DNA of 64,000 bases from contig JAJVII010000012.1 in the NCBI GenBank assembly GCA_022072085.1, positions 1 to 64,000 of the forward strand, read 5' to 3'. The notes beneath the pieces were generated by a model that worked only from the letters and a program-made list of their open reading frames with translations, was not told where the DNA came from and made no database searches. The stretch comes from Phycisphaerae bacterium. GTDB taxonomy: Bacteria > Planctomycetota > Phycisphaerae > JAJVII01. The translations under genes were made by a program, and so were the position numbers. The stretch's first letter is position 1. Each line of letters begins with the position of its first letter. Of this stretch, positions 5,243 to 26,764 are shown in pieces.

Positions 5243-6043
5243 TCATGTTGATTTCACGGGGTTGTTCAATTGGCCGATGCCTTCGACCTCGACGGTGCAG
5301 ACGTCGCCGGGGCAGAGGAAACGCGGCGGTTTGCGCTTCGCGCCCACGCCGGCGGGCGTGCCGGTCATGATGCAGGTGCCGGCCGCCAGCGTGAACTGCC
5401 GCGAGAGGTAACTGACCAGGAACGCCGGCGGGAAGATCATCTGGGACGTCCGCCCGTCCTGCATCGTCTGGCCGTTGAGCAGGAATCGAACCGCAAGATC
5501 CGACGGGTCCAGTTCGGTCTCGATCCACGGACCCAGCGGGCAGAAGGTGTCGAAGCTCTTGGCCCGCATCCACTGCTTGTCGATCTTCCACTGACAGTCT
5601 CGGGCCGACACGTCGTTGCCGCAGGTGCAGCCCAGCACGTAGTCCATCGCTTCGCGCTCGGCGACGTTGCGGCAGGATCGGCCGATGACCAGCACCAGTT
5701 CCGCCTCGTAGTCCACTTCGTCGGGGGCCTCGGCCGGCAGAACGATCGCGTCGTCCGGGCCGACGATCGACGTGGTCAGCTTGGCGAATGCAAGCGGGTG
5801 GTCGGGGATTTCGCCGCCGAGATTGCCGGCCACCTCATGCACGTGCTCGGCGTAGTTCTTGCCGATGGCGATGACGTTGGGCGGATCGACCGGCGCGAGC
5901 ACGCGGGCGACGTCGGCCGGTTCGTCGGTCGGCTTGAACTTCGGCGAGAAGGGACAGGCCTCGGCCCGGCGGACGCCGCCGTCGGTTGAGCGGATGCCGT
6001 AATGGACCTTGCCCTCGCGATCGCGGTAACGGACGATCTGCAT
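5243..6043 (-). CDS. Fumarylacetoacetate hydrolase (FAH) family protein
   Basis: 266 residues. The core NVIAIGKNYAEHVHE, then VDYEAELVLVIG with metal ligands Glu113 and Glu115, and GNDVSARD with Asp144, is the FAH-family signature; the C-terminal TGTPAGVG loop is also typical. Family members bind Mg2+ or Mn2+ and hydrolyse, hydrate or decarboxylate acylpyruvate-type acids. In this neighbourhood (sugar epimerase, Gfo/Idh) a role in degrading a 2,4-diketo or 2-keto-3-deoxy sugar acid is more likely than tyrosine catabolism, but this is inference. ATG 6043 follows AAAGGG at six bases. Confidence 0.88.
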   Translation of the reverse strand: MQIVRYRDREGKVHYGIRSTDGGVRRAEACPFSPKFKPTDEPADVARVLAPVDPPNVIAIGKNYAEHVHEVAGNLGGEIPDHPLAFAKLTTSIVGPDDAIVLPAEAPDEVDYEAELVLVIGRSCRNVAEREAMDYVLGCTCGNDVSARDCQWKIDKQWMRAKSFDTFCPLGPWIETELDPSDLAVRFLLNGQTMQDGRTSQMIFPPAFLVSYLSRQFTLAAGTCIMTGTPAGVGAKRKPPRFLCPGDVCTVEVEGIGQLNNPVKST

Positions 6044-6068
6044 GGCTGCCCTTTCGGTGCGTGGAGCA

Positions 6069-6097
6069 TTGTCTTGCGTGACAGAAGTTACTATAAC
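6069..6097 (+). promoter_or_regulatory. Candidate sigma70 promoter upstream of heptad hairpin A
   Basis: TTGTCT (6069-6074), a 17-base spacer and TATAAC (6092-6097) make the best promoter match in this divergent spacer. A start near base 6104 would place heptad hairpin A entirely in the 5' leader of the Gfo/Idh gene. Confidence 0.4.
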
Positions 6098-6116
6098 ATC
6101 GGGCGGAAGGAAAGCA

Positions 6117-6232
6117 GGGACCAGGGGCTAGGGGCTAGAGGTCAGAGGCTAGTGGAAGACAGGCGTGACAGCCGCTTCTTCACTAGCCTCTGACCTCTAG
6201 CCTCTAGTCTCTGCCCCCTGACCTCTGGCCCC
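6117..6232. repeat. Heptad hairpin A (GAGGYYA-type words)
   Basis: Left arm 6117-6158 is six tandem 7-base words (GGGGCTA, GAGGTCA and variants, the last GTGGAAG). Right arm 6184-6232, read on the minus strand, is seven such words (GAGGCTA, GAGACTA, GGGGCCA and variants). A 22-bp segment pairs perfectly (6133-6154 with 6181-6202) around a 26-base loop; further out the pairing has mismatches but the 7-base phase holds. The element lies between divergent genes, 11 bases before the AAGGAG site of the Gfo/Idh gene. Confidence 0.9.
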
Positions 6233-6256
6233 CAACGTCACACAAGGAGACCTCAC

Positions 6257-7285
6257 ATGGTTCGCGTCGGCATCGTCGGGTTGGGATTCATGGGGACGGC
6301 CCACTTCGGTTACTACTCCGCCAACCCCAAGGCCAGGATCGTCGCCCTGTGCGACCGCATCCAGGCCCGCCGCGAGGGCGACTTCTCCGGCGTCGGCGGC
6401 AACCTGTCGGCCTCGGGCGGCAAGGGCGTGGACCTGAGCAAGATCGCCAGCTACGCCAAGCCCGAGCAACTCATCGCCGACCCCAACGTCGACCTGGTCG
6501 ACATCTGCCTGCCGACCGACCTGCACGCGAAGTACGCCGTGCTCGCCCTCAAGGCCGGCAAGCACGTCATCAACGAGAAGCCGATGGCCCTGACCGTCGC
6601 CGACTGCGACAAGGTCGCCGCCGTCGCCGCCCGCGCCAAGGGCGCCTACATGGTCGCCCAGTGCATCCGCTTCTGGCCGCAGTATGCGGTGGCCAGGCAG
6701 ATCGTCGCCAGCGGCCGGCTCGGACCGCTCAAGACGATCTTCCTGGAGCGGCTGGCCCCCACGCCGCGCTACAGCACCCAGCAGTGGCTCCTGAACGCCA
6801 AGCGCAGCGGCGGCGCCGCCTTCGACCTGCACGTCCACGACGTGGATTACGCCAACTACCTGGCCGGCGTGCCCACGCACGTGTCGGCCGTCGGTTACAA
6901 AGGCGAGAGCGGCGGGTTCGACCACGTCACTGCGACGCTGGTCTACCCCAAGGGCGTGGTCGCGACCGTCCGCGGCGGGTGGACCTATCCCGACAAGTGG
7001 TCGTTCGAGATGGCCTTCACCATCGAGTGCGCCAAGGGCACGATCCACTGGCGAATGACCAGCGGGCAGCCGATGACCGTCATCACCAACAACAAGGTCG
7101 AAACGCCCAAGGTCGCCAGCAGCGACGGCTGGGCCGAGGAACTGAAGTACCTGGTCAACTGCATCGAGAAGAAGCAGAAGCCGACCGTGGTGACTGCCAG
7201 GACCAGCCGCGACGCCATCCGCACCGTCGTCGCCGAGGTCAGGAGCGCCGCCGCCAACGGCAAGGTCGTCACGCTGGGCAGGTAA
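6257..7285 (+). CDS. Gfo/Idh/MocA family oxidoreductase
   Basis: 342 residues. N-terminal Rossmann fold with GIVGLGFMG (residues 5-13), the family EKP motif at 107-109 (NEKPMALT) whose Lys acts in catalysis or substrate binding, and the GGAAFDLHVHDVDY segment that carries the family His/Asp pair. These enzymes oxidise sugars or inositols with NAD(P). ATG 6257 follows AAGGAG at seven bases, and the gene ends at a strong terminator. The substrate is not readable. Cytosolic, no signal peptide. Confidence 0.9.
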   Translation: MVRVGIVGLGFMGTAHFGYYSANPKARIVALCDRIQARREGDFSGVGGNLSASGGKGVDLSKIASYAKPEQLIADPNVDLVDICLPTDLHAKYAVLALKAGKHVINEKPMALTVADCDKVAAVAARAKGAYMVAQCIRFWPQYAVARQIVASGRLGPLKTIFLERLAPTPRYSTQQWLLNAKRSGGAAFDLHVHDVDYANYLAGVPTHVSAVGYKGESGGFDHVTATLVYPKGVVATVRGGWTYPDKWSFEMAFTIECAKGTIHWRMTSGQPMTVITNNKVETPKVASSDGWAEELKYLVNCIEKKQKPTVVTARTSRDAIRTVVAEVRSAAANGKVVTLGR

Positions 7286-7310
7286 CGAACAACTGGATGC
7301 CCATAGAAGA

Positions 7311-7344
7311 GGCCGCCGGGCTTTCAACCGCCCGGCGGCCTTTG
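7311..7344 (+). terminator. Intrinsic terminator after the Gfo/Idh gene
   Basis: An 11-bp perfect GC stem (7311-7321 with 7330-7340), an 8-base loop, then TTTGT. It lies between convergent genes. Confidence 0.8.
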
Positions 7345-7359
7345 TCCATGCCTGCGGGA

Positions 7360-9690
7360 TCAGTTGTCCTTCCACGCCGCCAGCTTTTCTGCCATGGCCG
7401 ACTTCAGCCAGTCAATCGGCTCCTTCGCGGCGGCCCGTTCCATCACCGGCCGGGCCGCGGCGTCGTTCAGGCGGATCAGCGCCTCGAACGCCGCCTGACG
7501 AATCGCCTCGTCGCGGCTGGCCAGGTGCCGGCGGATCGGCGGGGCCGCTGACTTGACGCCGCAGGCCGCCAGGGCGGCCAGGACGTACGGCCGCGGGTAG
7601 TCGCCTCCGCGGTCCAGCGCCGCCAGCAGGGCCTCGGCGGCCGCCGGGTCGCCGATGCCGCCAAGTGCGACGGCTGCCAGTTCCATCGAGTCCGGATCGC
7701 CGGCATTGACCGCGGCGTTCATGATCTCGACCAGCGGCCCGACCGCCTCCTTTCCGCCGAAGATGCCCAGGGCCCGGATGTAGGCCCATCGGCCCGCCAG
7801 CCCCTTGGTCGTCCGCCAGCCCGGTTCCATCAGCGGGATCGCCTCGCGCAGGCCCAGCCGGGCGACCACCATGGCCGAGAAGCCCCGGAAGGATTCTTTG
7901 TCCTGCACGGCGGCCGGCTTGTCGTCCGGCACGTCATAGCGGATCTCGGGCGAGCCCTTCACCACCGCCAGCGCTACCGGGCGGCATATCGCCGGGTCCA
8001 GCGCCCACAGCGTCTGGATCGCATAGGTGCGCAGCCGCATGTCCTTCGTCTCGTTGAGCACCAGGTCGCGGACAGCCGGCGCCGCTGTTTCCGCCCCCAG
8101 CACGCGCAACGCGGCCAGCGCGTTGTATCGCTCCTTGCGGTCGGAGAGTTGCCCGATGTAGTCGGCAGCCGGTGCCATCTCTTTCGGCGGGCAGTCCCTG
8201 CTTATGATGTCCACGGTCGCGAAGGCCGCGTCGAACGGACCATCGTTGGCGGCCGGGCCGGTGTGCTCCAGCACTGTCACCGCCCGCTCGCCCTCAGCCG
8301 GGACGTTCTCATAGGTCAGCTTCGTGCAGGTGACGTCTTCCCACCGCCGCCCGGCGCACACGATCGTGTAGTCGGCTGGGGCTTTGTTCACCCGCGTCAC
8401 ATTCCGCTGGGCCCTGCCGGCGGCGTCCAGCCATTCGCACGTCATCTTCAGCGCCCGGCCGGCCGGGATGTCGGCGGCAACGTGGATGCGGTTGGTCCCC
8501 GGCATCAATGTTGGCAGGGCGAAGATGTTGTCCTGGAGCTGTGCCGTCCAGACGACCGAGTCGACACGCGTGCCCGGCGTGGTCTCCAGTTTCACCCAGG
8601 CCTCGTAACGGCCCCGCAGGGAAACCGTATCCTGCGGGCACAGGTTGACAGCCGTCGTGCCGTCGCGGGCCGGACCGACGGCCTCGCTCTGATGCAGGAG
8701 CTTCCAACTGTTGCCGCCGTCGATCGACAGCGAGAGCCTGAAGGTGTCCTTCTCCGCGGCCCGGCGGAAGCGGAGAAACCATTGCGAATCGGCGACAACG
8801 GCCGGGAATGTCCGGTGGAAGACCAGTCCGCCGCCGTCGGCCGGCGTCCCGTCAGCGGGCGTCAGCAGGAATCGGTCTTCGCTGCTGCCGGCGTGAATGA
8901 CGTAGGGCCCGTGCTCGAAACTGGTCAGGCCCTTGAGCCCGCCGAAGTTGTCGACCCAGAGGTTGGGCGGGCGCTTTTCTGAATAGGGCTGACCCCAGGC
9001 GCTGACGTGAAGGCCGCCGGGCGAGACGGAGATGTCGGCCAGCGGCGCGGGCGTCGTGGCGTGCGGGCAGGCGACCCAGCCCCAGTAGGCGAAGTCCCAG
9101 TCGATGTGGTTGCGTGGCGTGCGGCTGGGCCACTGGTAGAGCGAGAAGTCCCACATCAGGTCGTCCGGCGAGACGATCCGCGAGCCGTCGCGGGTGTAGG
9201 CGAACCAGCCCTCGGAGGTGTCCAGCGTGTGCCAGCGGGTCTGTCCGTCGTCGTCGCGCCACTCGGCCAGCACGACGGTGTGGCCGTTGAAGAAGCACTT
9301 GGTCGCCCGGTGGCCCATCGCCCGCCAGACCAGCTCGTAGACCCGCGAAAGCCCGTCGCACCAGTGGGCCGCGTAGACATTGAGAATCTTAATCGCGTCG
9401 TCGTGGATCTTGACGGTCCTGCCGTCCGGGCCGGGTTCCTCGGGGATGTGGCCGTTGGTGGAGGTGGAGAGGTGGCGGATCCACCGCCACACGGCCAGGG
9501 CCTTGTCGGTGTCGGTCTTTGCGTTCTCCAGGCGGCAGGCGTCCAGGCCGAACTGCCGCAGATCCCGCGCGTCCGGCCAGCGGTCGCAGGTGACGCGAAC
9601 GCCGGTGATGGCCGACGCCGGCCGGTCTCCGGCGGCCAGGACATGGGCGCCGAACAGCAGGGCGATCGCGGATACAAGCAGCAGTTTCAT
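7360..9690 (-). CDS. Exported transglutaminase-like protein with C-terminal HEAT repeats
   Basis: 776 residues. MKLLLVSAIALLFGAHVLAA is a signal peptide; ATG 9690 follows AAGGGAG. Residues 55-165 form a transglutaminase/papain-like core with the triad Cys111 (AAHWCDGLSRV), His137 (FNGHTVV) and Asp157 (HTLDTSEGW). The middle third is beta-rich. Residues about 510-770 are HEAT/PBS-lyase-like helical pairs (AAEALLAALDRGGD, KEAVGPLVEIMN, AAPPIRRHLASRDEAIRQAA). Such a combination suggests peptide or protein cleavage or crosslinking in the periplasm, guided by a helical repeat platform; no substrate is suggested by the neighbours. Last gene of a group with the M20 and kelch genes. Confidence 0.8.
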   Translation of the reverse strand: MKLLLVSAIALLFGAHVLAAGDRPASAITGVRVTCDRWPDARDLRQFGLDACRLENAKTDTDKALAVWRWIRHLSTSTNGHIPEEPGPDGRTVKIHDDAIKILNVYAAHWCDGLSRVYELVWRAMGHRATKCFFNGHTVVLAEWRDDDGQTRWHTLDTSEGWFAYTRDGSRIVSPDDLMWDFSLYQWPSRTPRNHIDWDFAYWGWVACPHATTPAPLADISVSPGGLHVSAWGQPYSEKRPPNLWVDNFGGLKGLTSFEHGPYVIHAGSSEDRFLLTPADGTPADGGGLVFHRTFPAVVADSQWFLRFRRAAEKDTFRLSLSIDGGNSWKLLHQSEAVGPARDGTTAVNLCPQDTVSLRGRYEAWVKLETTPGTRVDSVVWTAQLQDNIFALPTLMPGTNRIHVAADIPAGRALKMTCEWLDAAGRAQRNVTRVNKAPADYTIVCAGRRWEDVTCTKLTYENVPAEGERAVTVLEHTGPAANDGPFDAAFATVDIISRDCPPKEMAPAADYIGQLSDRKERYNALAALRVLGAETAAPAVRDLVLNETKDMRLRTYAIQTLWALDPAICRPVALAVVKGSPEIRYDVPDDKPAAVQDKESFRGFSAMVVARLGLREAIPLMEPGWRTTKGLAGRWAYIRALGIFGGKEAVGPLVEIMNAAVNAGDPDSMELAAVALGGIGDPAAAEALLAALDRGGDYPRPYVLAALAACGVKSAAPPIRRHLASRDEAIRQAAFEALIRLNDAAARPVMERAAAKEPIDWLKSAMAEKLAAWKDN

Positions 9691-19379: not shown

Positions 19380-20999
19380 CTACTTGTCGGTCGCAGGAAT
19401 TTGCGAAGTGTCTTCTGTCGCTTTGGGCGCGGGTGCGGCGCCTTCGTCAGAGTCCGGCTGGGTCGTTGGCGCAAGTGACTTGGGGAAGTGCCGCAACACG
19501 TTGGTGCCGCAGCGCGCCCCGCCGCCGCCGCGGTGCAGGCTGTCCCAGCCGTTGACGAAGTCCACCACCGCCCCCTGCTCGGCCATCCGCCGCTCCGCTG
19601 CGTCCCGGAGCGCATCGCTGTCGTCATCGGCGGGGTCCGTCCGCGGGCCGAACGGCTGAAGCACGACGGCAGTCCCGTTGAGGTTGACCAGGTTGACCGC
19701 GTTGGGCGTCAGCCACCAGACCTCGTTGCCCTGCCCGTCGTCGGCTGCCAGCACGGGCAGCCGGATCACGTCCCGGCGGCGGATCCCGCCGACGCCGGCC
19801 CGCACCGTCGCGACGATCCCGTCCGGGCCATCGATGCGATCGGCCAATCGCCGGGCAGCGGCGGCCAGTTCGGTGTCCTCGGCCAGTTCGCCCGCAGCCA
19901 CGACAGCCGGCACCGACTCGCCACCGCCGTCGCGCCAGAACTGCGTGCCCTCGACCAGCAGGTAGCGGGTCGTCGCGTCGGGCGGCTCGTACCAGGTCTC
20001 CTGGCTGTCGCAGCGGTCGTCCATGATGCCCGAAACGGCCGCCACCACGCCATGCCCGCGCCGTACCGGGTCGCGCAGGTCCCAGACCTTGTCGATGACC
20101 AGCCGGTGGGCCTCGACGCGGGCGATGCGGGCGACCTGCCCCCCGCCCGCGCCCGACCACAGCCGCACGTAGCGCCAGCTCGCACCCGATGACTTGAAGT
20201 CGCGGCCGCGGTCCTCGAGGGAATCCTCGCCGCCGCCGGTCGCCTGGCCGGCCAACTCGCGGCTGCCGGTCTGGTAGAACACGGCCCGCTGCGCGGGCGT
20301 CTTGCGGATCAGCTCCAGGGCCCCTATCGGGTCGGCAACGACCAGCCGGTATCCCGGCGGCAGCGCGCTGGGCACGAAGGCGACGATCTCGTCGACGTGG
20401 CCGACGCGCAGCCAGTCGGTGTCCAGTTCGATCAGCCCGCCGTCGGGGCCCGTCTGGAGCCGCTGGCGCCGGAAGTACCGCGCGAGGTGGGGCGACATGT
20501 GTCGGCCGACGATGATCCGGCCCATCGGGTTGGCCGACGTCGGAGGGGAGACGACCACGTCGCCGCCGGCGTCGAAGCGGTTCCAGCCGCGGAAGGCAAG
20601 CGGATCGGCGTCGATCACCTTCGTGCCGCTGTCGGGGAACTGCTCGCGGGCGAAATCGTGCAGGGGCTCGCCGGCGGGCATGAGCAGCACGGCCGGCTGG
20701 CCGTCGACCCAGCCGAAGACCCACGCGTCGCGGGCCCATGCGTAGATCGCCCCGATGCCCAGCTTGCCCTCGCGGTCGATCTGCGGGATGTGAACGATGC
20801 TGTCGGGCTGGAGGTCGCCGAGGTTCTCCAGCGACTCGACCCACGCCTCCATCGACGTCGCGCAAACCATCGCCACCGGACCGAACGGCGGAGAGACGAC
20901 GAAAGGATGGGCCGGCGGACGGTCGCACCCGGCCGCCAGCAGCACCGGCAGGAGGATCGACAGCGCGAGTCCGAGTCTCGATAGCCGATGCCGCATCAC
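19380..20999 (-). CDS. Protein-arginine deiminase (PAD, PF03068-type) lipoprotein
   Basis: 539 residues from GTG 20999 (AGGAGA nine bases before); ATG 20996 is also possible. The signal ends in LAAGC, so Cys25 is probably lipidated and the protein faces the periplasm or surface. The sequence matches the catalytic domain of vertebrate PADs along its length: WARDAWVFGW (Asp91, equivalent to PAD4 Asp350), VVSPPTSANPMGRIIVG, DTDWLRVGHVDEIVAFVP (His201 and Asp203, equivalent to His471 and Asp473), LQPFGP, and ARCGTNV (Cys497, equivalent to Cys645). All four catalytic residues are kept. PADs turn protein arginine into citrulline in a calcium-dependent way. The N-terminal PAD immunoglobulin-like domains are absent, and the stretch between His201 and Cys497 is longer than in PAD4. 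Substrate unknown. Confidence 0.88.
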   Translation of the reverse strand: MMRHRLSRLGLALSILLPVLLAAGCDRPPAHPFVVSPPFGPVAMVCATSMEAWVESLENLGDLQPDSIVHIPQIDREGKLGIGAIYAWARDAWVFGWVDGQPAVLLMPAGEPLHDFAREQFPDSGTKVIDADPLAFRGWNRFDAGGDVVVSPPTSANPMGRIIVGRHMSPHLARYFRRQRLQTGPDGGLIELDTDWLRVGHVDEIVAFVPSALPPGYRLVVADPIGALELIRKTPAQRAVFYQTGSRELAGQATGGGEDSLEDRGRDFKSSGASWRYVRLWSGAGGGQVARIARVEAHRLVIDKVWDLRDPVRRGHGVVAAVSGIMDDRCDSQETWYEPPDATTRYLLVEGTQFWRDGGGESVPAVVAAGELAEDTELAAAARRLADRIDGPDGIVATVRAGVGGIRRRDVIRLPVLAADDGQGNEVWWLTPNAVNLVNLNGTAVVLQPFGPRTDPADDDSDALRDAAERRMAEQGAVVDFVNGWDSLHRGGGGARCGTNVLRHFPKSLAPTTQPDSDEGAAPAPKATEDTSQIPATDK

Positions 21000-21319
21000 A
21001 GCCGCGTTCTCCTGATCCCGGGACGCCGACGCCGGGGCAGGCGAGCCCCGAGATCGGGAATGCGACTATTATCCCCGCGCGGTGTCGGATTGGGAATCCC
21101 CGACCGTCTCCGGCCCGTCCGGGAATCTCTTGCCGGGCGGAGGAAACGGCAGTACGATTGAAGCAACGGCCGATCGGTTGCAGGCCGGGCCGTTTCATTT
21201 CGCACTGCACGGCCGGCGTCTCGGCGCCGCGGGTTGCGAACGCATTCTCCGCAACCGGGCGCAGCCGGCCAACCCGAACGCTCGACATCCTTGATCTGAC
21301 ATCCTGATCGGAGCACGCC
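21000..21319. other. Divergent spacer between the PAD lipoprotein and the CARDB/PKD protein
   Basis: This 320-base gap must hold both promoters. Only modest inverted repeats are seen, such as a 7-bp stem (21232-21238 with 21250-21256). No convincing -35/-10 pair, riboswitch or small gene was recognised. Confidence 0.5.
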
Positions 21320-24300
21320 ATGTCCACCCCCCTCGCCGCCCGGCGCTGGATCGCCATTCTCGGTTTCCTGGCCGCCCTGTTGACGATGGCCCGGGTCAGC
21401 GCGGCCGAGCAGCGGACCGTCGTCGTCGGCCCGCTGACGTTCGAGTCGTCGCAGAAGCTGCTGGAGTTCCTGCCCACGGTGGACGTCGGGACGCACAAGG
21501 CGTTCCCCAACTGCCACGAGGACGGCTGGGTGTTCACGCAGTTCCCGCTGGTGCAGTTCAAGCTGCGGCTGTTCCTGAGCCCGGGCTACATGCTGTCGCA
21601 CCACGAGGCCTTCCTTCAGGCCAGCTACGACGACGCGAACATCCGCCCGGGCGGGACGCTGCCGGTGACGTTCCGGCTTCAGCCGGCCGGGACGGGGTCG
21701 TACCTGCGCAGCGGGGCTGGGGCGATCTGCGAAGCCAAGTGGCGGATCGGCGTGAGCCTCGGCGGGTTCGGCGTGTGGATCGAGAACGACATCCCCTACC
21801 TTCCCAACTTCAACTGCGGCTACCAGGCCCACGTCGGCGGCTACACGACGCCGATGCCCAACGGGAAATACACCGTCGGCGCCAAGAGCGACCTGGGCGA
21901 CGAGATTCCGATCACGCTCTACGACGTCGCGGGCAAGGGGGAACTTCAGCTCGTGCTCCAGCCGGGCCTTTTCTTCGCGCTGCGGTTCAAGGACATGACC
22001 GCCCGCGTCGCGGTCAGCGGGGCCGAGTCGATCAGCAGCGGCGGCACGGCCGTGCCCGTCGGTCAGCCGACGACGCTGGTCCACGACAACCAGACCGGGC
22101 ACACGTTCAACGTGACGCTGCCGGCCGACCTGCGGGAGCTGTCGGACTTCCGGATCGTGCTGACCGGCATCGACTATCAGGACGACGTGAAGATTTCGCC
22201 AACGATGGGCTTCGCCCTGGGCGTGAAGGTGGAGCTCGGGGCGTCCTCCGGCAACGGCGAGCAGGCCGACGAGGACGAGACCGAGGGCGGCGGCGAGCCC
22301 CCCGACGGTGAAGACAACGACCTGGAGGAGGAAAAGGACGAGAGCGAGATCAGCGGCCAGAAGGTGGACTTCGGCAAGGTCACGATCAGTTGGGGGGAGA
22401 TCGGCTACACAACCCCCTCCTACGTCTGGGACATGGGCAGCGGCCCGCTGGGCAACCTGTTCACGCTCGGCTGGAACCTGCCGCTGAACAGGCCGGACAC
22501 CGAGGTTCCCATCGCGATCCCGCCAATGCCCGACCTGATGATCCCGTCGGCGACGATCGCCAACGACAACCGCACGCTGACCTCCAGCGTCGAGGTCGAC
22601 AACCAGGGCAGCGCCGACGCCGGGGCGTTCCAGGTCAAGTGGATCCTTGAGAAGTCCGACGGGTCGACCGTCGCGGGCGTGCCCAGCCCGCTCTGGACGC
22701 AGGCGGTCAACTCGCTGGCCGCCGGCGACTGCGTGACGCTGAGCAAGAGCCTCACGCTGGCCGCCGACCTGCCGCTGGGCTCTTACCGTCTGCGTGTGCA
22801 GGCCGACACCGCCGGGTCTGGCGCGTGGCATCAGGTGGTCGAGCAGTGCGAGGTGAACAACGAGGCCCAGGCGACGCTCAGCTCGACGCTGGACCTCGGG
22901 GCGACGCTGGGGGCCGACTGTCTGTTCCGCCAGCAGGCCTGCGCCGCCGGCGACGCGGCGCCCGCCTCGCAGCGCATGCCCGGGCGGCGCTACTGGATCA
23001 AGGCCGCGGTCACGCGGCGGGCCGCCGACATCGCCGCCCCGATGGTCCCGGTCGAGGTGTGGGCCCAGCGGCACCGGTGCCCCATCGCGGTCCAGGGTGT
23101 GGGCGACAACGCCAACTACGGCGGCGAGTATTACGGGCCCAGCGTGCTGATCGCCCGGCGGGTCGTCGCCCTGGGCATGGCCACCAGCGCGTCGGTCGTC
23201 GTGCCCTGGGATCTGCCGGCCCGCGAGGACGCCAACTGGGAGATCCGCGTCAAGGTCGATCCGCAGGGCCAGGTCACCCAGTGGCTGCCCGGCGGGCAGG
23301 ACGCAACCGCCAACGACCTGGCCTGGGCGTGGCGGCGGTTCGAGCGGCCGCGATTCTTCGTCAACGGGATGGGCGCCCGCCCGGGCCCGGGCGTCGCCGA
23401 CGCCGACTGGACCATCGGCTCGCAGACGACCTACTACGCGCGGGTCCGCAACTCGTCGGACACCGCCGCCACGGGCGTGCCCGTGCAACTGTTCGTCGCC
23501 GGGCGGATGGTCAGCGAAACGACGCTGGACATCGCCCCCTGGACCGACGGCGAGATCACATTCACGCGGCCGTTCAGCCGCGACGACCTGTTCCGCGACT
23601 TCGACCTGGGCGGGGGCATGGTCTTCCCGCGCGTCTTTGTGCGCGCGGTGATCGATCCGCGCGACGAAGTCGAGGACCAGAACGACGGGCTGACCAACGC
23701 CGATCAGCGTTACATCGACGCTCCGCCGATCGGCGACCTGGAGGCCGAACTCAGCCTGCCCTCCGAGCCCGCCTACGCCGGCGAGGCCCAGGCCGTCCGC
23801 GTCGGCGCGGGCAACGCCTATCGCCAGAGCTTCCCGGCCGGGGCGCTGGGCAAGGTGGGCGCGTCGGCCCACGCGCTGGTCGGCGAGACCGAGCAGCACC
23901 AGGAGCAGCAGGTCGCCCAGGGCCAGATCGACCAGACCCCGCCCGGGCAGTACCTTGCCCACACCTCGACAAACTGGGGCGTGACGACCACCTGGTACAC
24001 GTGGGAGCACGTCCGCGCCTACCTGCCGGCGGTCCAGTGGGTTCCGCAGGCCTCGGGGCTCCACCTGTTCACGGCCCACCTGACGGTCCCGGTCGCGCCC
24101 GCCTGGGCCAACAGCCCCGAGCGCGACAAGTACATCAGCGACCTGAACTCCTTCGACAACGGCGTGGTGCGGACGTTCTACGTCGGCCTGCCGCGGCCCG
24201 ACCTTCAGGTAGCGCGGGTCTACGCCGCCCGGATGCCCAGCCGCGGCGACCTGGCCGACCTGCGGCGGCTCTCCGGCCGAATCGCCGAGTCGCTGGCCGG

Positions 24301-26764
24301 CGGCCGACGCGCCGACGCCCTGCTGGCTGAGGACACCGGCCGAGCCTACGCCGGCGCCCCGGTGACCATCGCTGTGGACGTGATCAACCCCCCGCCGTCG
24401 GCCGACTACCCCCCGGTCGCCGCGCTCAACGTCCGAGTCAACCTCTACGCGGTCTACCAGCCGGAGTGGAAGAAGCACCGCGTCCTGGCCGACATCAGCC
24501 GAAAGTGGTCGCAGCTCGAAACGCAGTTGCCCGGGCTCGGCAGGCCGATCCGCCAGTTCGCCCTTTACGTCTCCGAACGCGATCGCCCGACCACCGGGCG
24601 GCTGCTCGTGCCCACGCCCATCTCGATCACCACGCCCCGGGCGGCGCACCAGTTCACGCGCCCGGCTGCGGGCAGCTTTCGGCCGACGACGGGGGGCCGC
24701 CTGCCGCTGAACCGCCCCGACGCCGCGGAACTGGCCTCCAAGACCGCGCTGGATCTGCTGCACGAGTTCAACCAGGCCCAGACCGAGGTCCTGCTGGTCG
24801 GCACGCAGGTGCTGCCGCGCGTCGAAGCCGGCGCGGTGGCGACGTTCCAGTGGCGCCCGCCGCACGGCGGCGACTGGCTGCTGTCGGCCGTGGTCGATCC
24901 GGGCGACGAAATCTTCGAGCGCGACGAGCAGAACAACTCGGCCGACATGCTGCTGGACGCCCGTCCGACACCGCACTACTTCGCCAACACCCCGCCGCAC
25001 GCGGTGCTGGGCGTGCGGGTCGGCCGCGGCGTTCGGCGGAGCGAATTCGTCGAGTCGGTCCTCGCCCAGCGGGCCGGCGACGAGCCCAAGGCCCCCAAGA
25101 CGCCCGACAGCTACCCCGTCGACCGCGAGGTCGGCAGGATGTGGGATGCCCTGGACGCGGCGGCCGCCAAGCGGTTCGCCGCCCTGCCCGCCCTGTCAGC
25201 CAGGCGGACGATCACCATCCGCCAGGGCCAGACCTTCACGCTCGTCGGCCAGCGGACCGTGGACCGCGAGCACGACGTGGCCGGCTACTGGTGGTCCGGC
25301 CCGAGCCTGAGCGAGGTCACCACCGAGCCCTGCCTCGTCGTCGACACCAGCCTGCCCGGGCAGGAGCTGGGGCCGGGCACGCACGTGTTCTGGCTGACGG
25401 CGACCGACTCAGCCGGCCTCTACGGGCGCGACTGCGCGTTCGTCACGGTGGTCAAGGGCGGGTCCAACGCCGCAAACCTGGCGCCCGCGGGGGTGCAGAT
25501 GCTGCCCGCGGGGCCCATCGCCGGGCAACTGACCAGCCTGCACGTCGCGGTCGTCAACGACGGCGGCGGGGCGACGGGCAAGGCGTTCGCGGTGCAGGTC
25601 TTCGACGGGCAGACTCGGCTGGGCGAGGTCACCTGCCCCGCCGGCCTGGCCGCCGGCGACGTCGCCGAGATTTCCCTGCCCGACGCCTGGACGCCGACGG
25701 CCGGGCTGCACGCCCTGCGCGTCGTCGTGGACCCGGGCCATCAGGTGGCGGAGTCCAGCGAGTCCGACAACACGATGGCGCTGGCGCTGCGCGTGACCGA
25801 CAACGCCCCGCCGGTGGCCGACCTGGGGAGCGCGGAGTTCACCGTGCAGGCCGGGCACGGGCTGTTCCTGGACGCCTACCGCTCCTACGACCCCGACGGC
25901 AGGCTGACGCGCTACGACTGGTTCGTGAACAACCGGCTGGAGAACGGCGTGCACGGGCGGCGGTTCCGCTACGTCGCTCCCAATCGGGCGGGCGACGTGA
26001 AGGTCAAGCTGGTCGTCGCCGACAACGGCACGCCGCCGCGGCCGAGCGCCGCGTTCGAGGCCGTCATCCACGTCGTCAAGGACCGCAACCGCGAGCCGGT
26101 CGTGCAGTTGCCCAGCCACCTGATCGTCACGCGCGGGCGGCAGATCACCATCCCGGCGGTCGGCTGCTACGACGGCGACGGGAAGATCAGCAGCTACCAG
26201 TGGAAGGTGAAGGGGCTGGAGGCCCGCGAGGACAAGGGGCACGCCTTCGTGATCGACACCGCCAAGGCCAAGACCGGCGTCTACGAGGTGAAGCTGGAGA
26301 TCGCCGACAACCGAGGCGCCACCGCGTCGGGCAGCACGATGCTCTATGTCGTCGACGAGCCCAACCGGGCGCCGGTGCTGGACATTGCGCCCAACGTGAT
26401 CGCCGTCCGCGGCGAGAAGGTGACGCTGGACGCCTCGCACAGCCGCGACGTGGACGGCACGATCGCCGACTACCTCTGGATCGTGCCGCCCACCGCCCAG
26501 GTCGCCGCCGGGCCGAAGTTCGTCCTGGACACCGCGACGCTGAAGGTCGGCCTCCACCTGGTCATCCTCGCGGTCAGCGACAACGACGGGGCGACGACCA
26601 CTCGGCCGATCGCCGTGACCGTCCTGCCGCTCAAGGGCCAGCCGCTCCAGAGCGACACCGGCTACGATCCGAGCAAGCCGCTGAACAAGCAGCAGCTTCA
26701 GCAGATCGACGGCAACCCGCCGACGGACAAGCCGAAGCGACGCACGGACGAATCGCCGAAATGA
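21320..26764 (+). CDS. Giant exported protein with CARDB and PKD domains
   Basis: 1814 residues. A signal peptide covers roughly residues 1-28 (IAILGFLAALLTMARVSA). An acidic stretch near residues 313-345 is rich in Glu, Asp and Gly. CARDB-type beta sandwiches are seen near 404-527, in the middle third (with the ending DPGDEIFERDEQNNSAD) and near 1384-1493 (DPGHQVAESSESDNT). The C-terminus holds three PKD-like domains (about 1496-1773), each with a YDPDG, YDGDG or DVDGT turn. There is no C-terminal membrane anchor or sorting signal; the tail is Lys/Pro-rich. Such proteins are adhesive or structural and sit on the cell surface. It is divergent from the PAD lipoprotein, and its stop lies five bases before heptad hairpin B. 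Confidence 0.85.
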   Translation: MSTPLAARRWIAILGFLAALLTMARVSAAEQRTVVVGPLTFESSQKLLEFLPTVDVGTHKAFPNCHEDGWVFTQFPLVQFKLRLFLSPGYMLSHHEAFLQASYDDANIRPGGTLPVTFRLQPAGTGSYLRSGAGAICEAKWRIGVSLGGFGVWIENDIPYLPNFNCGYQAHVGGYTTPMPNGKYTVGAKSDLGDEIPITLYDVAGKGELQLVLQPGLFFALRFKDMTARVAVSGAESISSGGTAVPVGQPTTLVHDNQTGHTFNVTLPADLRELSDFRIVLTGIDYQDDVKISPTMGFALGVKVELGASSGNGEQADEDETEGGGEPPDGEDNDLEEEKDESEISGQKVDFGKVTISWGEIGYTTPSYVWDMGSGPLGNLFTLGWNLPLNRPDTEVPIAIPPMPDLMIPSATIANDNRTLTSSVEVDNQGSADAGAFQVKWILEKSDGSTVAGVPSPLWTQAVNSLAAGDCVTLSKSLTLAADLPLGSYRLRVQADTAGSGAWHQVVEQCEVNNEAQATLSSTLDLGATLGADCLFRQQACAAGDAAPASQRMPGRRYWIKAAVTRRAADIAAPMVPVEVWAQRHRCPIAVQGVGDNANYGGEYYGPSVLIARRVVALGMATSASVVVPWDLPAREDANWEIRVKVDPQGQVTQWLPGGQDATANDLAWAWRRFERPRFFVNGMGARPGPGVADADWTIGSQTTYYARVRNSSDTAATGVPVQLFVAGRMVSETTLDIAPWTDGEITFTRPFSRDDLFRDFDLGGGMVFPRVFVRAVIDPRDEVEDQNDGLTNADQRYIDAPPIGDLEAELSLPSEPAYAGEAQAVRVGAGNAYRQSFPAGALGKVGASAHALVGETEQHQEQQVAQGQIDQTPPGQYLAHTSTNWGVTTTWYTWEHVRAYLPAVQWVPQASGLHLFTAHLTVPVAPAWANSPERDKYISDLNSFDNGVVRTFYVGLPRPDLQVARVYAARMPSRGDLADLRRLSGRIAESLAGGRRADALLAEDTGRAYAGAPVTIAVDVINPPPSADYPPVAALNVRVNLYAVYQPEWKKHRVLADISRKWSQLETQLPGLGRPIRQFALYVSERDRPTTGRLLVPTPISITTPRAAHQFTRPAAGSFRPTTGGRLPLNRPDAAELASKTALDLLHEFNQAQTEVLLVGTQVLPRVEAGAVATFQWRPPHGGDWLLSAVVDPGDEIFERDEQNNSADMLLDARPTPHYFANTPPHAVLGVRVGRGVRRSEFVESVLAQRAGDEPKAPKTPDSYPVDREVGRMWDALDAAAAKRFAALPALSARRTITIRQGQTFTLVGQRTVDREHDVAGYWWSGPSLSEVTTEPCLVVDTSLPGQELGPGTHVFWLTATDSAGLYGRDCAFVTVVKGGSNAANLAPAGVQMLPAGPIAGQLTSLHVAVVNDGGGATGKAFAVQVFDGQTRLGEVTCPAGLAAGDVAEISLPDAWTPTAGLHALRVVVDPGHQVAESSESDNTMALALRVTDNAPPVADLGSAEFTVQAGHGLFLDAYRSYDPDGRLTRYDWFVNNRLENGVHGRRFRYVAPNRAGDVKVKLVVADNGTPPRPSAAFEAVIHVVKDRNREPVVQLPSHLIVTRGRQITIPAVGCYDGDGKISSYQWKVKGLEAREDKGHAFVIDTAKAKTGVYEVKLEIADNRGATASGSTMLYVVDEPNRAPVLDIAPNVIAVRGEKVTLDASHSRDVDGTIADYLWIVPPTAQVAAGPKFVLDTATLKVGLHLVILAVSDNDGATTTRPIAVTVLPLKGQPLQSDTGYDPSKPLNKQQLQQIDGNPPTDKPKRRTDESPK

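Follow-up and report, generated by a model that had tools for sequence, protein, structure and literature searches.

The window analyzed here, a 64,000-nucleotide stretch of DNA from a Phycisphaerae bacterium (Planctomycetota), carries a gene for a lipoprotein of the peptidylarginine deiminase (PAD) family. Its product, encoded by the open reading frame (ORF) at 19380–20999 on the minus strand and referred to below as the window protein, keeps the complete catalytic tetrad of the family and lacks both the PAD_M domain and all three ligands of the Ca1 calcium site.

Gene, catalytic domain and export signal

The 539-aa ORF, identified as a PAD_C-only lipoprotein gene from the ORF call, Pfam and codon-position GC, starts with GTG, with an ATG one codon downstream. 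A possible ribosome-binding site, AGGAGA, lies upstream (21008–21013, minus strand), and an in-frame stop is found 5′ of the ORF at 21066–21068. The GC content at codon positions 1, 2 and 3 (0.74, 0.51 and 0.90) follows the pattern of a coding gene. Together with the homologues and the selection described below, it rules out a spurious ORF or an artefact; this is a genuine PAD-family gene, and the observation is far above chance. A whole-genome search found it to be the single PAD gene, with no second one. Its neighbors are a gene for a GYF-domain protein, from 18650 onward on the minus strand, and, on the opposite strand, a gene for an 1814-aa CARDB/PKD-repeat protein (21320–26764, plus), which looks exported and is oriented divergently to the PAD gene. 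Nothing beside the PAD gene is conserved among the window and the genomes of its nearest relatives, G381 and G266, so the context yields no substrate.

By its sequence, the window protein is a member of the PAD catalytic-domain family. The Pfam search gave a PF03068 match of 114.6 bits (E 7.2e-33; curated cut-off 25 bits), which falls into two halves, at 20292–20741 (profile 67–228) and 19488–19787 (profile 287–387), both on the minus strand. Apart from PF03068, no Pfam family matched at E up to 1, including the PPAD-type family PF04371. In a phmmer search against PDB sequences, only PADs were matched, the best being PAD2 (E 1.5e-15).

In the alignment, Asp91 (20727–20729), His201 (20397–20399), Asp203 (20391–20393) and the nucleophile Cys497 (19509–19511), all encoded on the minus strand, correspond to Asp350, His471, Asp473 and Cys645 of PAD4, whose residue numbers were verified against the printed PDB sequence. 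These four columns are invariant in all 45 aligned PAD_C domains, a set of bacterial sequences (two from Streptomyces included) and human PAD4. The equivalents of PAD4 Trp347, Val469 and Asn588 are also retained, and the motifs GHVDEIV and CG[TI]N are kept in the window protein and its two relatives despite about 41% identity. The sequence-only reading had proposed the PAD4-like catalytic residues and a PF03068 match as its check, and both are borne out.

Structure prediction is consistent with a PAD fold. Two AlphaFold models of the window protein have low overall confidence (pLDDT 45 and 53), although confidence rises to about 70–90 in the core of each conserved half. The low confidence is due to input alignments limited to distant relatives; the MAFFT alignments A3 and A4 misplaced the Asp91 region, and the trimmed alignment A5 improved little. 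With these low-confidence models, every top match listed by Foldseek was a PAD, with E values down to 6e-14 and query TM scores of only 0.3–0.5 (up to 0.51). Such matches support the fold and do not imply that the four residues meet.

The N-terminus carries a signal peptide with the lipobox LAAGC (20925–20999, minus strand), in which a basic n-region, a hydrophobic core and a lipobox ending in Cys are all present: MRHRLSRLGLALSILLPVLLAAGC. The predicted lipidated residue is Cys25 (20925–20927), followed by Asp26 at position +2. The assignment comes from a simple pattern scan rather than a trained predictor, and the two relatives have a lipobox at the equivalent place (APGC and AQGC), giving a lipobox-type signal in all three proteins. 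The window protein is thus probably exported and membrane-anchored. In E. coli, Asp at +2 favors retention in the inner membrane, a rule not established for this phylum; if it applies, Asp26 would favor an inner-membrane location.

By the same simple pattern scan, about a dozen PAD_M-bearing PADs of the phylum also carry a lipobox-type signal (L014, L019, L023, L025–L030, L032, L033, L035 and L007, the last titled Acidobacteriota), and others have a Sec-like one. The lipoprotein signal ahead of PAD_C noted from the sequence alone therefore stands, but its distinctiveness does not: exported PADs are common in the phylum, and lipid anchoring is not the surprise.

Loss of PAD_M and the calcium ligands

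Ca1 and Ca2 lie in the C-terminal domain and Ca3–Ca5 in the N-terminal part (PMC13023937; PMC5445078). Cummings et al. 2021 (PMC8826395) reported Ca1 and PAD_M as conserved in all PADs. In their account, bacterial and fungal PADs have at least a divergent PAD_M, Ca1 and Ca3 are fully conserved, as are the residues for catalysis and substrate, and calcium is absolutely required.

The window protein departs from this pattern. Neither PAD_M nor PAD_N gave a Pfam match, and in the window protein, G381 and G266b (the proteins of the two relatives) the mature sequence would run from the predicted lipid-anchor Cys directly into PAD_C. In most other aligned PADs, the calcium-binding motif of PAD_M or a match to its Pfam profile lies ahead of PAD_C, some records being truncated or masked there. 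The Ca1 ligands Gln349, Glu353 and Glu411 are replaced by Arg90 (20730–20732), Val94 (20718–20720) and Val149 (20553–20555), all on the minus strand, and by Thr, Ile and Met in G381 and G266b. Among the 45 aligned PADs, only these three proteins lack all three ligands; Gln349 is present in 42, Glu or Gln occupies position 353 in 41, and Glu or Asp occupies position 411 in 38. The substitutions do not depend on the choice of alignment, because the region is anchored without gaps on both sides (WxxDxxxxG and GxxxxxPP).

Further changes are found around the active site. In the same three proteins, Arg precedes the catalytic Cys (Arg496 in the window protein, 19512–19514, minus strand, replacing PAD4 His644), where 41 of the 42 other PADs have His. 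The Ca2 ligands Glu351, Asp369 and Asn373 are replaced by Ala, Leu and Gly, positions that are poorly conserved in other bacterial PADs too. Arg372, in the substrate-side loop of PAD4, is Ala in the window protein.

With PAD_M and Ca1 as the defining features of the calcium-dependent PADI enzymes, the window protein falls outside that group. The actinobacterial, fungal and cyanobacterial PADIs (PMC8826395) share its tetrad and its bacterial PAD_C; however, they are reported to have a PAD_M, if divergent, and conserved Ca1 and Ca3, whereas the window clade has neither PAD_M nor these sites. Human PAD1–4 (PF03068, PF08527 and PAD_N; PAD4, 1WD9) are likewise similar in PAD_C, the tetrad and the surrounding motifs. 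They differ in being three-domain proteins whose calcium sites, as shown in PAD4, are needed for activity; the window protein consists of PAD_C alone behind a lipoprotein signal, carries an insert of about 118 aa and Arg before Cys, and is devoid of Ca1 and Ca2 ligands. The label "vertebrate-type" given in the sequence-only reading is therefore misleading: PAD_N, PAD_M, the Ca1 and Ca2 ligands and Arg372 are missing, and the tree places the protein among bacterial PADs, apart from PAD4. Porphyromonas gingivalis PPAD is a secreted, calcium-independent bacterial peptidylarginine deiminase of a different family from PAD; the window protein, by comparison, matches PF03068 alone in Pfam.

Relatives, insert and descent

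PADs are present in 25 of the 392 genomes drawn from the phylum, and a profile of the window group has matches in 14 of the 397 genomes searched from the class. The nearest relatives, G381 (L043) and G266 (L044), are 41–42% identical to the window protein and belong to one genus of the same phylum but a different class. Only two genomes represent the order of the window bacterium, and the PAD gene is absent from the other one. The G266 genome has two PADs, the PAD_M-bearing L020 (G266:C793) and the calcium-site-less lipoprotein L044 (G266:C152). A literature search combining planctomycete and peptidylarginine deiminase found no paper, within incomplete coverage.

In a tree of PAD4 and bacterial PADs other than cyanobacterial ones, the window protein, G381 and G266b form one clade (support 100/100), which still receives 100 once the calcium-site columns are removed. 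Between the G381 and G266 proteins dN/dS is 0.11–0.21, and this pair is under purifying selection. A phage or viral origin was rejected, as searches of phages and viral contigs turned up no relatives, and the plasmid relatives are distant actinobacterial PADs only. Streptomyces plasmids carry PAD genes (L054 and L055); the PAD of the NBC_00984 plasmid is also without most Ca1 ligands, with Gln kept, Lys at 353 and Gly at 411. Elsewhere, a PAD domain is found C-terminally in very large frames of about 1270–2470 aa (L042, L083, L084 and L086), and that of L084 also contains TSP3 and FG-GAP repeats.

PAD_C of the window protein is interrupted by the insert of about 118 aa (19911–20264, minus strand), which runs from VRLWSGAGGGQVARI to YLLVEGTQFW and is common to seven other PADs of the phylum. 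As a known domain it was rejected, with no match in Pfam or the PDB. Beyond the window clade, the insert is found at the same place in PAD_C in G021, G753 (G753a), G604, G644 and G541. Four of these (G021, G753a, G604 and G644; G541 was excluded) were checked: in contrast to the window clade, they keep Gln349, Glu353, an acidic residue (Glu or Asp) at position 411 and the His that precedes the catalytic Cys, with PAD_M present where the upstream sequence is readable. In L085 (G541), the PAD is split across two overlapping frames, that is, by a frameshift or an assembly error. L045 (G211, 5296–8412) is a divergent PAD with DTPMHADE replacing the usual VGHVDE, and has a separate GGTGSGQVRSV module that resembles part of the insert of the window clade.

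The window clade adjoins these insert-bearing PADs with support of 92/79 and 93/62, and of 78 without the calcium-site columns, a position that is plausible but weak. On that branching order, gain of the insert would have preceded the loss of PAD_M and Ca1.

Possible activity without calcium

We propose that the window protein is catalytically active and deiminates arginine in proteins or peptides independently of calcium, a reading to which the sequence comparisons lead us to give an even chance. It would be a guanidine deiminase of the PAD type with a single domain, exported and held by a lipid anchor, in which Cys497 would attack the guanidinium carbon with His201 as the acid/base, while Asp91 and Asp203 would hold the guanidinium. 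With the calcium-sensing PAD_M and the Ca1 site dropped, the active site would be kept in working shape without calcium. Arg496 is a candidate built-in cation; as a working hypothesis, it may together with the hydrophobic former Ca1 pocket take over the role of the metal. The likely substrate would be arginine in cell-envelope proteins or peptides.

It is also conceivable, though we consider it unlikely, that the window protein is a catalytically dead PAD-fold lipoprotein, in which the loss of PAD_M and Ca1 reflects functional decay and which now binds something, as may be the case for human PAD6, whose calcium-site residues are degenerate. PAD6, a multi-domain oocyte protein of the PAD family, is called inactive in the title of its PDB entry; the parallel is drawn at the family level, not residue by residue. 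The PAD4 triple mutant Q349A/E353A/E411A has 0.1% of wild-type catalytic efficiency (Liu et al. 2017, PMC5445078), so the loss of Ca1 could equally mean lost activity. The window protein naturally lacks exactly those residues and is either dead or has an active site held in another way; several active-site neighbors (R372A and H644R) are altered as well. However, the nucleophile or the His should disappear from a pseudoenzyme, whereas the tetrad and its surrounding motifs persist in three proteins, of which that of the window has diverged by about 60%. This persistence and the purifying selection between the two relatives argue against a loss of activity.

An active, calcium-independent enzyme could instead act on something other than internal arginine, such as free or C-terminal arginine, a lipid that bears arginine, or some other guanidine compound. 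In place of the Arg372/Arg374 loop, the window protein has MPAGEP and its relatives have MPGGGP and MPGEGP, and peptide binding may differ because Arg372 has become Ala; the insert within the catalytic domain could point the same way. We regard such a substrate as rather improbable, given that the equivalents of Trp347, Val469 and Asn588 are retained and that position 374 is variable among other PADs as well (Arg in 27 of 45). Far less probable still is a continued dependence on calcium or another metal through ligands invisible in the alignment, for example within the insert. The insert does contain an acidic stretch, EDSLEDRGRD, but PAD_M is absent, the Ca2 ligands are unconserved, and in all three proteins the side chains at the Ca1 positions are poorly suited to coordinating calcium.

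A broader form of the proposed calcium-independent deiminase, which we hold only tentatively, is an always-on envelope PAD whose catalytic calcium has given way to an arginine in the active site and to hydrophobic packing. Such a protein would represent a further regulatory class, descended from a bacterial PAD that had the insert and was regulated by calcium, through the loss of PAD_M and Ca1.

Calcium is held to be absolute for PAD catalysis, and PAD_M and Ca1 are reported as universal among homologues. With its tetrad kept and both of these lost, the window protein offers a natural test of calcium-free PAD chemistry, which would reveal whether calcium is chemically needed or merely regulatory, and it might be developed into a small citrullinating enzyme that needs no calcium. 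The exported and lipoprotein PADs found across the phylum also bear on arguments over the origin of animal PADs.
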